Shown here piece after piece: positions 42,344 to 51,637 of a stretch of DNA of 64,000 bases; the stretch's first letter is position 1, and every line of letters begins with the position of its first letter. Source of the DNA: Simiduia sp. 21SJ11W-1 (GTDB lineage: Bacteria > Pseudomonadota > Gammaproteobacteria > Pseudomonadales > Cellvibrionaceae); contig NZ_CP090959.1 in assembly GCF_024138675.1 (NCBI RefSeq), positions 1,116,001 to 1,180,000 of the forward strand, given 5' to 3'. A model generated the notes under the pieces. That model searched no databases. It was not told the origin of the DNA and saw only the letters and a program-made list of their open reading frames with translations. Made by a program: the position numbers and the translations under genes.

Positions 42344-42982
42344 ATGAGTTTGAATCTGGAAGATTTACGCCGCGACTACCTGATGGGTGGCCTGGATCAC
42401 AGCGATCTGAATGACGACCCCATCGCCCAGTTTGAGGTGTGGTTGCAGCAAGCCATAGACCTGCAACTAAAAGACCCTACGGCCATGACAGTGGCCACGG
42501 TAGATGCCAGCGGCCAGCCGTCGCAACGCATTGTGCTGCTGAAAAAGGTGGATCACGGTTTTGTGTTTTATACCAACTACGGTTCGCGCAAAGCCCAAGA
42601 GCTGAGCGCAAACCCTAAAGTGAGTTTGCACTTTCCCTGGCACGACATAGAACGGCAGGTGAAAATCTGTGGCGTGGCTGAAAAAGTCAGCGCGGCAGAA
42701 TCGGCCAAGTATTTTCTCTCGCGCCCGAAGGAAAGCCAGCTGGCAGCCTGGGCCTCTCACCAAAGTCACCCGGTCGCTACGCGGCAGTTGCTCATGCAGC
42801 AGGTGGCGCGCATGAAAGAAAAGTTCGCCGCAGGCCTTGTGCCTGCGCCCGATTTTTGGGGCGGCTACCGGGTAGTGCCCTCTGAAATCGAATTCTGGCA
42901 GGGCGGTGCCAACCGGCTGCACGACCGCTTCCAATACACCCGCACCCAGGGCGGCTGGCAACGCAAACGCTTGGCGCCCTAG
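42344..42982 (+). CDS. pdxH: Pyridoxamine 5'-phosphate oxidase
   Basis: 212 residues. FMN-site motif R-I-V-L-L-K-K-V-D and [10 protein letters not shown] are present, and the end W-Q-R-K-R-L-A-P is the usual PdxH C-terminus. It makes pyridoxal phosphate from pyridoxine or pyridoxamine phosphate. Independent gene, divergent from mobA. Confidence 0.97.
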
Positions 42983-43003
42983 GCGGCTTTCATTACGTTG
43001 GTG

Positions 43004-44200
43004 TTAGCGAGCATCAACCGCCTGTTGCGCGGGGGCTTGTAGGGCAGGCGCTTGGAGTGCAGGCGCTTGGGGTTTGCCAAGGCCGGTATCATCTTCGGCG
43101 TGTGCCTGCACCAGCGCCAGCAGCACCCCTTTTTCTTCCCACAGGCTGATTTGCAAGCCGCGCGCAAAACGCAGCAGTGGGCGCTCGTCTATGTTAATGG
43201 CCCCCAGTTTTTCAAAGCTTTCCGCAAACGGCACCTGAAACAGCGAGGCGCCATCGGCCAAACGCAGCACAACGCCGTTTCGACCCTGAATGCTTACATA
43301 ACGCCCGCCAATTAACCGGCTGTTGAGATCTGGCAGGTGGATGCTATTTACCAGAGTGAAATCCAGCGCCGTAAAGGCTTGATCGAGCGCTGCAATATTG
43401 TTGCCTTGATATTCCAGTGGCTGTTGCTGCAGGTGCAGGCTAACCACTTCGCCCGTGATGGATTCCGTCAGCTGTGTTTGCTGATAGGCCTGCCACTGGG
43501 TGTGCGCAGCCAAGCCCACGCCCAGAAAAAACAGCAGGCAGGCGATTTTTTGCCAGTGGCTCAGTGGCCGTTTGGGTGGCGTGAAAGCAGGCAGGCTACG
43601 GGCTTTAAGCGCGCTTAATTGGGCCTCTGTTAAGGCCGCGCCCGCAATTTCCTTTTTGCACAAGGTTTTTAACGGTTGAGCTTTTTCCCCAGTGGTGGCT
43701 TGCTCTTCGATGGCGCTTGTGGCTTGTGGTGCGCTCGCAAGCTCTAAGTGCAGTTGGTGAAACTTTTCCAGCAGGGCTTGGTGCGGCAGCTGCCACTCAT
43801 CGGCCATTTGCTCAATAGAAAGATCAAGCCAGGCCCAAAGGTAGAGTATGTCGCGCAGGTCGGGCTCGAGTGTGGGCCACTGGTGGCTTAATTGCCCGGG
43901 TTGCAACTGCAGTTGTTCCAATGCCTCAAGCGGCGCCTGCAGGCTTTGCTTGGGGTTTTCATGGTCGGGTTTTGCGCGCGCACTGGTTTGGCTGCGCATG
44001 CGTTCATGCAGGAGGTTGCGCATCACCTTGCGTAGATAGGCCTCAGGCTGTAGCGCGGTTGTTTGTGATAACCGCATCCAGCGCTCAATCGCTGCGCGCA
44101 GTAAATCCAACGCTTGCTGGGTGTCGGCTGTGAGCACCAGGCCAAAGCGAAACAGGTTAGCCCATTGGTCATCGGTCAAATTTAACGGCGTTACCGGCAT
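43004..44200 (-). CDS. Membrane protein fusing ECF-sigma-like and anti-sigma-like parts
   Basis: 398 residues. Residues 1-75 resemble ECF sigma region 2 (A-Y-L-R-K-V-M-R-N-L-L-H-E-R), and 110-152 resemble region 4 (R-D-I-L-Y-L-W-A-W-L-D-L-S-I-E-Q-M-A). A single membrane helix follows at about 218-234. Residues 285-365 look like the periplasmic end of anti-sigma factors (D-L-N-S-R-L-I-G-G-R, then V-V-L-R-L and L-Q-I-S-L-W-E). The C-terminus has repeats of the type L-Q-A-P-A, from 15-base DNA repeats near 43033-43077. I infer a self-contained sensor or a dead sigma scaffold; activity is unproven. Start 44200 ATG. Confidence 0.6.
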   Translation of the reverse strand: MPVTPLNLTDDQWANLFRFGLVLTADTQQALDLLRAAIERWMRLSQTTALQPEAYLRKVMRNLLHERMRSQTSARAKPDHENPKQSLQAPLEALEQLQLQPGQLSHQWPTLEPDLRDILYLWAWLDLSIEQMADEWQLPHQALLEKFHQLHLELASAPQATSAIEEQATTGEKAQPLKTLCKKEIAGAALTEAQLSALKARSLPAFTPPKRPLSHWQKIACLLFFLGVGLAAHTQWQAYQQTQLTESITGEVVSLHLQQQPLEYQGNNIAALDQAFTALDFTLVNSIHLPDLNSRLIGGRYVSIQGRNGVVLRLADGASLFQVPFAESFEKLGAINIDERPLLRFARGLQISLWEEKGVLLALVQAHAEDDTGLGKPQAPALQAPALQAPAQQAVDAR

Positions 44201-44219
44201 GGGAATCTCGCTATTTTCT

Positions 44220-44258
44220 TTGAGAGTTTAATTGAGAGTTACATTGAGAGTTACATTG
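44220..44258. repeat. 12-base tandem repeat upstream of the sigma-like fusion gene
   Basis: Units TTGAGAGTTTAA, TTGAGAGTTACA, TTGAGAGTTACA and a partial fourth, about 3.25 copies. It lies 20 bases before the start codon of the minus-strand gene, inside its 5' untranslated region or promoter spacer. Confidence 0.85.
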
Positions 44259-44475
44259 TGTGAACAGCAACCCGTGCGTTCAAGCTTGTGGGCGGCAGTG
44301 CCCGAGCCTGGTATGCAGATGGGCTGCAGCTTTAATTGAGCAAAGGTTACCATTGCCGCAGGCCTCTGGCACATAGCTTTTGGCTTAAGGCCTGTGTTGC
44401 TGGGGCAATGTTTCTGTGTACCAGTTGCTATGCCATACTGCGGCCACGTTTAACCTGTAAAACCGCGAGGTGGCT

Positions 44476-45459
44476 ATGCGATTTATAGATTTGCCGCGCT
44501 TTGGCGATGCCAGTGTGATGTGTGTAAGCGAAACAGATGCCCCAACGCCCGTGGCAGGCGAAGTGCAAATTCGCGTGCATGCAGCGGGCGTGAACCGGCC
44601 CGATGTAGTGCAACGCATGGGCCGTTACCCGGCGCCTGCCGGCCACTCGCCCATACTCGGGCTGGAAGTGGCCGGTGTGATCAGTGCCGTGGGCGAAGGG
44701 GTGAGCCAGTGGGCCGTGGGCGATGCCGTGTGTGCCCTGTGCAATGGCGGTGGCTATGCAGAGGTAGTGTGCGTGCCGGCCGGTCTTTGTTTGCCTAAGC
44801 CTGCCTCGCTTTCATTTGTAGAAGCGGCAGCCTTGCCGGAAACCTTGTTTACTGTATGGGGCAATGTGTTTGTGCGCGGGCGGTTACAGGCCGGTGAATC
44901 CTTGCTGGTACACGGTGGTAGCAGTGGCATTGGCACCATTGCCATTCAGTTGGCCCAGGCCTTGGGCGCGCATGTATATGCCACCGCAGGCAGCGATGAA
45001 AAATGCAGGGCTTGCACCCGCTTGGGCGCCAAAGCCGCCATTAATTATCGCCAGCAGGATTTTGTAGCGGAGCTTAAGTCGCTCACCCAGGATGCGGGTA
45101 TAGACGTGATTCTGGATATGGTGGGTGGCGATTATATCGCCAAAAATATTGATCTGGCGGCAATGGAGGGGCGCATTGTAAACATTGCTTTCTTGCAGGG
45201 GCCAAAGGTTGAATTGAATCTGTTGCCGGTGATGCTAAAGCGTTTAACGCTCACAGGCTCTACCTTGCGCGCCCAGGCCAATGAGGCCAAGGCGGCGCTG
45301 GCGCGCGGTTTATCAGAACAGGTGTGGCCGCTGATCGAGTCGGGTAAAATAGCGCCCGTTATTCACACTACCTTCGCCCTGGGTGAGGTAGAACAGGCGC
45401 ACCGGTTAATGGAATCGAGTGCGCACATCGGCAAAATTGTGTTAACCGTTAACGATTGA
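44476..45459 (+). CDS. NAD(P)H-quinone oxidoreductase (PIG3/QOR family)
   Basis: 327 residues of the medium-chain reductase fold. The NADPH-binding stretch H-G-G-S-S-G-I-G-T-I-A-I-Q-L is clear, and no structural zinc Cys cluster is seen. Family members reduce quinones or enones. ATG at 44476 has GAGG upstream. yqhA follows after eight bases and a CoA-transferase after that, so this is an operon head. Confidence 0.92.
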   Translation: MRFIDLPRFGDASVMCVSETDAPTPVAGEVQIRVHAAGVNRPDVVQRMGRYPAPAGHSPILGLEVAGVISAVGEGVSQWAVGDAVCALCNGGGYAEVVCVPAGLCLPKPASLSFVEAAALPETLFTVWGNVFVRGRLQAGESLLVHGGSSGIGTIAIQLAQALGAHVYATAGSDEKCRACTRLGAKAAINYRQQDFVAELKSLTQDAGIDVILDMVGGDYIAKNIDLAAMEGRIVNIAFLQGPKVELNLLPVMLKRLTLTGSTLRAQANEAKAALARGLSEQVWPLIESGKIAPVIHTTFALGEVEQAHRLMESSAHIGKIVLTVND

Positions 45460-50449: not shown

Positions 50450-51036
50450 GGCAGCTCTGCCTCAATGGCGGCGTGCACCACGCCGGGCATTTCACCCAGT
50501 GCAGATTCAACTTGGCTGCGGTCGGTGTAGCCTGGCTGCGCTTTGGCAATAAAAATCCGCAAGATGCCAATGCTGCTTGGGCCATCAACAATGCGCGCAT
50601 GGTGTTGTGTGAGCGTGGCGGCCAGATCTTCCCAGCGCAGGTTCGCGTCCAGCTCCAGCTGAATAAGCCAGCCATTGCTGAGTGCACCCGCTTGGCCTGC
50701 TGCAAGCAAGGTGAAATCAGGTGCCGGTGCTGGCCGTGCGAGAATAATAAACTGCACACACAGTACCAAGGCCGCGGCACTCGCCATTGCAGGGCGCCAC
50801 CATTGAGGTTGCGCTTTGGGTGTGTTGAGTTCGCGTTTTAAGCGTGCCCAGCCGAGGTCTGATGCCTGGGCCTGGCCTTGGTGTTTTATTTGCTGTTGGA
50901 TAGCGCGCAGCGCCGCCAGTTCTGCACGCGCTTGTTCCGATTGTGCAAGCCAGGCATCCACGCGTTGCTTTTCTGCCTCAGTCAAACTGCCGTTCACATA
51001 CCAGGGCAATAGTTCGGATAAATCTTCAGTGTTCAT
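50446..51036 (-). CDS. Membrane anti-sigma factor with propeptide-like periplasmic domain
   Basis: 196 residues. Residues 1-70 form a helical cytoplasmic domain like zf-HC2 anti-sigma factors (L-L-P-W-Y-V-N-G-S-L-T-E-A-E), but without the zinc His/Cys ligands. One membrane helix lies at about 83-100. The periplasmic end (121-196: W-L-I-Q-L-E-L, then R-I-V-D-G-P-S-S-I-G-I-L-R-I-F-I, ending P-G-V-V-H-A-A) has the pattern of inhibitor I9/subtilisin propeptides. It sits between the sigma gene and the subtilisin gene, overlapping the latter. I infer that the protease recognises this domain. Confidence 0.78.
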   Translation of the reverse strand: MNTEDLSELLPWYVNGSLTEAEKQRVDAWLAQSEQARAELAALRAIQQQIKHQGQAQASDLGWARLKRELNTPKAQPQWWRPAMASAAALVLCVQFIILARPAPAPDFTLLAAGQAGALSNGWLIQLELDANLRWEDLAATLTQHHARIVDGPSSIGILRIFIAKAQPGYTDRSQVESALGEMPGVVHAAIEAELP

Positions 51037-51097
51037 ATTGAACGTCCTTAGGCTAAATTACGTCTCATGCCTTGGTCGGTTTCATACCGCCCGGGGT

Positions 51098-51637
51098 TCA
51101 TTGGTTTGCCAAGCAGCGCATCAGCAGATTTTTTGCTTGCATCATTCGCGTTTTTACCGTGCCTGTTGGAATTTGCATGACCTCTGCAATTTCCGTGTAG
51201 GGCATCTCTTCAAAAAAGGCGAGCCAAACCACCTCTTTGAGTTTTGCTTTTAATGCATCAACACAGGTGCGCACACTGGCGGCATCTTGCGAAGCGCTGG
51301 CGGCAGCAAATAAATCGCAATCGCAACTGAGATCTTCGTGCAGGCTGATGTCTTCCTGATCCTCATGGCGACGCTTGGCGCGCAGCGCATCAATGGCTTT
51401 AAAGCGCGCCATGCTAAACAACCAGGTGCGCACACGGGCCTCGCCCTGAAAGCTGGCGCCTTTGTGCCACACCTCTAGCATCACGGTGTTGATCACTTCT
51501 GCAATGTCGGCGGGGTTGTGCAGCGTGCGTTGTAGAAACGCCGACAGGGCGCCAGCATGCCGGCGATAGAAACGCTCCATGGCTTGTTGGTCGCCCTTGA
51601 CGATGGCGGCTAATAGCAGTTCGTCTGAATCCGACAC
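51098..51637 (-). CDS. ECF RNA polymerase sigma factor
   Basis: 179 residues from a GTG at 51637, chosen for GGAG and AAGG just upstream; the frame is open further but overlaps the preceding gene. Region 2 (A-E-V-I-N-T-V-M-L-E-V-W, T-W-L-F-S-M-A-R-F-K-A-I-D) and region 4 (Y-T-E-I-A-E-V-M-Q-I-P-T-G-T-V-K-T-R) are complete. It is followed by its anti-sigma gene. The TGAACC-N16-CGAC promoters of nearby small exported genes are its likely targets. Confidence 0.93.
   Translation of the reverse strand: MSDSDELLLAAIVKGDQQAMERFYRRHAGALSAFLQRTLHNPADIAEVINTVMLEVWHKGASFQGEARVRTWLFSMARFKAIDALRAKRRHEDQEDISLHEDLSCDCDLFAAASASQDAASVRTCVDALKAKLKEVVWLAFFEEMPYTEIAEVMQIPTGTVKTRMMQAKNLLMRCLANQ

Follow-up and report, generated by a model that had tools for sequence, protein, structure and literature searches.

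The window analysed here, a stretch of 64,000 nucleotides from Simiduia sp. 21SJ11W-1, contains a gene that is, in our judgement, likely to descend from a metal-response pair of ECF sigma and anti-sigma genes; the two have become fused, and their product would now be a folded membrane protein that does not read promoters, rather than an active sigma factor tethered to the membrane. It is a single open reading frame with an ATG start, located on the minus strand exactly where the initial annotation had placed one protein with sigma-like and anti-sigma-like halves. Fusions of sigma and anti-sigma factors are already known, as in IutY, in ECF48, ECF52 and ECF53 and in some ECF36 proteins, and the one in Simiduia is a further variant; a search among open-licence papers retrieved nothing on this protein or on a sigma fusion in Simiduia. 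The gene and its parts are the following:

43004-44200, minus strand: whole fused gene, 398 amino acids plus a stop codon, with a fused homologue in a second Simiduia genome (G001)
43724-44200, minus strand: sigma half, residues 1-159, with a predicted ECF sigma2 and sigma4 fold (Pfam, NCBIfam, PDB profile search, AlphaFold model and Foldseek)
43985-44173, minus strand: residues about 10-72, helices resembling sigma region 2 (Sigma70_r2 match and helices in the model)
43739-43786, minus strand: residues 139-154, sigma 4.2 recognition helix in degenerate form, PHQALLEKFHQLHLEL, with a net charge of -1 (comparison with 46 other sequences)
43670-43735, minus strand: junction or linker, residues 156-177, at which one gene ends and the next begins in split relatives (junction comparison)
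43580-43669, minus strand: residues 178-207, putatively the cytoplasmic N-terminus of the anti-sigma protein before the fusion (alignment)
43499-43555, minus strand: single transmembrane helix, residues about 216-234 (hydropathy and conserved position in the alignment)
43091-43492, minus strand: residues 237-370, periplasmic domain (model pLDDT of 85.9; RseB/MucB C-terminal domain as a middling match)
43295-43297, minus strand: Val302, at the Cys position of the GGRYC motif (family alignment)
44220-44258, strand not assigned: 12-bp direct repeat, 3.2 copies, just upstream of the start codon of the fused gene (repeat reading)

The N-terminal half is ECF sigma-like by NCBIfam, by PDB profile search and in its structural model, as the initial annotation had proposed, with a weak match in Pfam. 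Sigma70_r2 scored 17.5 bits with this half alone and 15.6 bits with the whole protein, for a cut-off of 24, and Sigma70_r4 did not match the sigma half in Pfam. The NCBIfam models TIGR02983 (E 1.3e-9) and TIGR02937 (E 4e-4; 20.1 bits vs a cut-off of 42.9) were both retrieved below their own cut-offs; the split relatives in another Simiduia genome (G003) and in G006 exceed the curated sigma cut-offs, of which the window half falls short. In the PDB, a profile built from 12 related N-terminal halves matched ECF sigma factors best (SigH, E 4e-16). The sigma and periplasmic halves were modelled apart; trial full-length alignments mixed the halves. The AlphaFold model of the sigma half (pLDDT 72, pTM 0.65) likewise retrieved ECF sigma factors as best matches with Foldseek, with a TM of 0.63 to SigW within SigW-RsiW, and the predicted fold is sigma2-linker-sigma4. 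A membrane helix had also been anticipated between the halves, and the best 19-residue hydropathy stretch of the protein spans residues 213-231, with the top stretches all falling at this one place.

The periplasmic domain was modelled with a pTM of 0.83. The C-terminal half has no Pfam family match, and it is homologous to a separate anti-sigma-like protein that adjoins the sigma gene in other genera (E 1.5e-64 against the assembled family profile, which includes the window row). As no named profile matches, the case for an anti-sigma factor comes from genomic context and the logic of the operon; the initial annotation was right about both halves. NrsF (PF06532) did not match the window C-terminal half in Pfam and was absent from the families listed for 25 relatives; neither FecR nor a zinc-finger anti-sigma domain matched the window protein in Pfam at E up to 10, and DUF2275 was not found in it by Pfam. 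The DUF3379 model (PF11859) scored 19.2 bits with the G001 protein, vs a cut-off of 33.2, and matched 4 of 25 members at E up to 1. With Foldseek, the periplasmic domain retrieved nothing below E 0.001, and with VIA-align its top six structural matches were all RseB/MucB entries, with middling Z scores of 5.5-5.8, rmsd of 2.7-3.2 and 75-81 residues aligned, the next row having a Z of 4.4. Sequence profiles gave no sign of homology to RseB/MucB, with an hhalign probability of 0.3% against MucB_RseB_C (PF17188), and we regard an RseB-like fold as a lead from the model. RseB itself is a separate protein. Within the family, a histidine of the periplasmic domain is invariant (48 of 48 members), and the cysteine of the GGRYC motif occurs in 45 of 48, being absent in exactly the three proteins of the fusion clade, which carry Val, Ser and Ser. 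These data outline a single-helix, Cys/His-bearing anti-sigma-like family that is linked to bufferin operons in Gammaproteobacteria and has no Pfam model over cut-off.

Sigma and anti-sigma factors are normally separate proteins, as the initial annotation had stated, and two adjacent ORFs indeed encode the halves in every other genus that was examined. Matches were found in 13 of the 58 relatives searched and, outside the genus, they consisted of separate neighbouring ORFs for the N- and C-terminal halves. The C-terminal half occurs in 23 of the 144 family genomes; samples of the order and of the class yielded it in 20 of 390 and 35 of 369 genomes, respectively, with some weak matches in the class; a fragment in G084 (E 4.7e-9) was excluded from the pair tables. 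Among 55 loci (L084-L138), both profiles fell in one ORF only at the window's own locus. The split pair is thus spread across Gammaproteobacteria, and we found the fusion only in Simiduia, in the window species and in G001.

Outside Simiduia, the pair often ends an operon with the order bufA (DUF2282), bufB (MNIO), bufC (DUF2063), sigma and anti-sigma, which was checked with Pfam in G006 and is also found in three Shewanella genomes; some pairs have no buf genes nearby, e.g. those of G012, G151, G153, G062 and G063. Excerpts of one paper describe bufferins as chelating excess copper and report Buf1 clusters with sigma and NrsF genes (PMC12452194). Likewise, according to excerpts of two others, SigF-NrsF controls such genes during copper stress in Caulobacter (PMC8224329), and two conserved, probably periplasmic cysteines of NrsF help maintain inhibition (PMC3511200). 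The ancestral signal of the pair would have been copper or another thiophilic metal. The single-helix family described here occupies the place that NrsF has in the published bufferin clusters (L052-L070, L077-L079, L085-L088).

The bufferin/GIG operons of Caulobacter and Cupriavidus, with SigF-NrsF, resemble the ancestral arrangement in that an ECF sigma factor and a membrane anti-sigma factor with conserved periplasmic cysteine(s) control DUF2282/DUF692 genes. NrsF, however, spans the membrane with six helices and carries two conserved cysteines, whereas the family found here has one helix, a periplasmic domain and one cysteine.

The split loci also share a promoter motif, GCAATCA-N15-CGT. 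Among the 45 split loci, 24 had at least 3.2 kb of upstream sequence, and in 22 of these the exact motif occurs once upstream of the operon or of the sigma gene, the other two having one mismatch, at the first base; the remaining 21 loci, with under about 1.1 kb upstream, contain the motif in five cases. The reversed motif, used as control, was found 0 times in 119,696 bases. In G003, where the pair is still split, the motif lies 122 bp before the start of the sigma ORF and is the sole standout of a genome-wide motif scan in Simiduia. By contrast, it is absent within 3.6 kb upstream of the genes of the fusion clade (0 of 3: the window, G001 and G002). A scan for promoters of the sigma-70 type only detected none in 42900-44500. 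In many Gammaproteobacteria (L052-L079, L085-L088), this sharp promoter lies ahead of the bufferin operon or of its ECF sigma gene. We rejected a regulon defined by this motif in Simiduia, as there were 4-6 pattern matches per genome vs 0-9 for the reversed control.

How the fusion arose can be followed within the genus. In G003 the TGA of the sigma gene is followed directly, with a gap of 0, by the in-frame ATG of the anti-sigma gene; since these two genes are in one frame with only the TGA between them, the loss of one stop codon suffices for a fusion. This arrangement is rare, both genes being in one frame in only 2 of 43 split pairs, G003 and G210 (gap of 42), and the usual configuration is a four-base overlap in a different frame (19 of 43); G265 and G760 were excluded from the 45 pairs in this count on account of over-extended starts. 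The protein from G001 is fused, has 421 amino acids and retains an internal Met at the old start position, and that of the window has no Met after residue 132, on which ground an internal start for its C-terminal half was rejected. In S. aestuariiviva (G002), similarity to the sigma half and to the cytoplasmic stalk is gone from the locus; a 252-aa ORF for the C-terminal half remains, with just a short stretch between it and the neighbouring gene. A fusion produced by sequencing error was ruled out by the second fused genome, G001, and by the related later state in S. aestuariiviva.

Trees of rpoB with outgroups place G003 outside the window species, G001 and S. aestuariiviva with support of 98-100. 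The order within these three differs, the window species grouping with S. aestuariiviva in the rpoB protein tree (81) and with G001 in a concatenated protein tree (0.95), and G001 with S. aestuariiviva in codon trees (86-89). With G003 outside the other three, the simplest account, which fits the sequences, would be one fusion event in the ancestor of the three species. Two independent fusions were also considered: PdxH identities alone place G001 nearer to G003, but rpoB and the outgroups place G003 outside.

Before the fusion, the pair would already have been apart from any bufferin operon, with pdxH and a quinone-oxidoreductase-like gene close by; the loss of the stop codon between the in-frame genes would then have yielded one protein, in a lineage that lost its operon neighbours, the promoter and the conserved cysteine. 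The bufferin precursor DUF2282 had no match in the four Simiduia genomes (4 of 4), each of which has one MNIO gene, located elsewhere. In the MNIO clusters of the window species (genome G000; L080, contig C1, 1210630-1211415, outside the window) and of G003 (L083), a precursor with EGKCG repeats lies before the MNIO gene and a partner-like gene after it; no sigma gene was seen in 3.8 kb around these two clusters. One small genus thus shows an in-frame pair divided by a single stop codon, fused proteins whose recognition helix is ordinary in one species and degraded in another, and the loss of the sigma half. With these stages side by side, one can test whether a sigma factor dies once it is tethered or is converted into something else.

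The sigma half of the window species appears to have lost the surface with which a sigma factor reads DNA. Its recognition helix, PHQALLEKFHQLHLEL, lacks the conserved basic and Gly-Thr residues, and its net charge of -1 compares with +3 to +6 in the other 46 sequences, including that of G001, with an ordinary helix (+4) though the protein is also fused. Of 22 sigma columns conserved in at least 85% of the other sequences, 10 are broken in the window species, the most among 47; G001 breaks 6 of 22 and the split G003 6 of 23. In a fixed topology of 47 pairs, the tip branch of its N-terminal half was the longest of all (1.193), and the ratio of N- to C-terminal tip branches was 1.83 for the window, 1.46 for G001 and 0.52 for G003; summed over all branches, the halves measured 31.0 and 39.2, a ratio of about 0.79, and one very short tip, Spne, had a ratio above that of the window. 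Fragments, weak matches, G176 (a near-copy of G240) and nine stronger class hits (G566, G757, G578, G852, G716, G710, G692, G742 and G709) were excluded from this tree.

The hydrophobic core, in turn, remains hydrophobic in 35 of 39 columns. Neutral codon-level drift from G003 to equal identity gave a mean of 26.6 (sd 2.8), and 0 of 400 runs reached 35; at a laxer 55% identity the observed value was reached in 1.25% of runs from G003 and 0.25% from G001, and the core was kept above the neutral simulation in all four settings. Some of the divergence from G003 is older than the fusion, which biases this test towards retention and makes it overstate retention after the fusion. Conserved basic columns were kept in 5 of 9 cases, which equals the neutral expectation and hence indicates a loss of constraint, not selection for loss. 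With its core kept and its recognition residues lost, the sigma half would have retained the sigma fold while DNA-recognition residues were not retained. From these comparisons, the sigma half of the window species probably no longer reads promoters; its retained core argues that it still does something. In G001, the sequence suggests that the sigma factor may still work, as the helix is ordinary and there are no more broken columns than in G003.

The initial annotation had proposed an active sigma factor held at the membrane and freed by proteolysis, or else a sigma-derived scaffold. An active factor would sense a periplasmic signal, be cut by site-1 and site-2 proteases and direct, with its freed sigma half, a small regulon from a changed promoter. 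Its parts have the same order as those of IutY from P. putida, activated by Prc and RseP according to excerpts of two papers (PMC5411451, PMC8999054), and the kept fold and hydrophobic core, together with the normal recognition helix of G001, also speak for it. Nevertheless, the loss of the basic and Gly-Thr residues of the helix, the absence of the promoter upstream, the lost periplasmic cysteine and a sister species that dispenses with the sigma half disfavour it, and we regard it as quite improbable overall: possible for G001, unlikely for the window species. The scaffold fits better, with a core above the neutral simulation and DNA-contact residues that were not kept.

These same features would suit a sigma mimic, a membrane-tethered sigma fold that does not read DNA but binds core RNA polymerase or a different anti-sigma factor, in amounts set by tethering and release. 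PhyR is an anti-anti-sigma mimic, and PhyR structures are among the structural matches of the sigma half (TM about 0.5-0.6); moreover, the genome of the window species contains nine matches to the N-terminal half profile, including the fusion, so that partner anti-sigma factors may be available. If true, the periplasmic domain would act on a different regulon by means of a decoy kept in cis. The partner is, however, only hypothetical, a response-regulator domain was not seen and one sister species manages without the sigma half, which leaves a mimic improbable.

Plain decay would make the sigma half an idle passenger, kept in frame merely because the downstream periplasmic domain needs translation, as might be expected from its fast branch, from its loss in S. 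aestuariiviva and from the lack of any Met beyond residue 132 at which translation could restart. A core retained above neutral drift in every setting argues against this, and we consider decay very unlikely.

We thus favour a retired regulator: a two-gene ECF sigma/anti-sigma system, which in other genera often closes an operon for bufferins, i.e. copper-binding peptides, and is preceded there, with its operon, by GCAATCA-N15-CGT, would persist in the window species as a fused protein. Its sigma half would be a folded cytoplasmic domain that is inactive as a sigma factor and probably docks in cis on what was the anti-sigma stalk. What all members of the clade have kept is the membrane-anchored periplasmic domain.

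Like the window protein, IutY (ECF243) joins an N-terminal ECF sigma factor, a membrane segment and a C-terminal periplasmic anti-sigma domain, reportedly of the FecR type, in a single protein. Unlike IutY, the window protein has no FecR domain by Pfam and its recognition helix is degraded, and its ancestor came from bufferin operons, not from siderophore signalling. The ECF48, ECF52, ECF53 and some ECF36 fusions also join a sigma factor to membrane-bound anti-sigma-like parts, but neither a zinc-finger anti-sigma domain nor DUF2275 is found by Pfam in the window protein, and ECF48, ECF52 and ECF53 are described from Actinobacteria, whereas the window protein is gammaproteobacterial.

Other sigma genes occur in the vicinity and in the genus. 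Another ECF sigma-like gene lies in the window at 50900-51500 (minus strand), followed by a short ORF resembling an anti-sigma N-terminus. A second ECF sigma gene near the family described here (L074-L076; E about 1e-21) is present in the genomes of the window species, G001 and G003, and in the first and last of these it is followed by an overlapping anti-sigma-like ORF.
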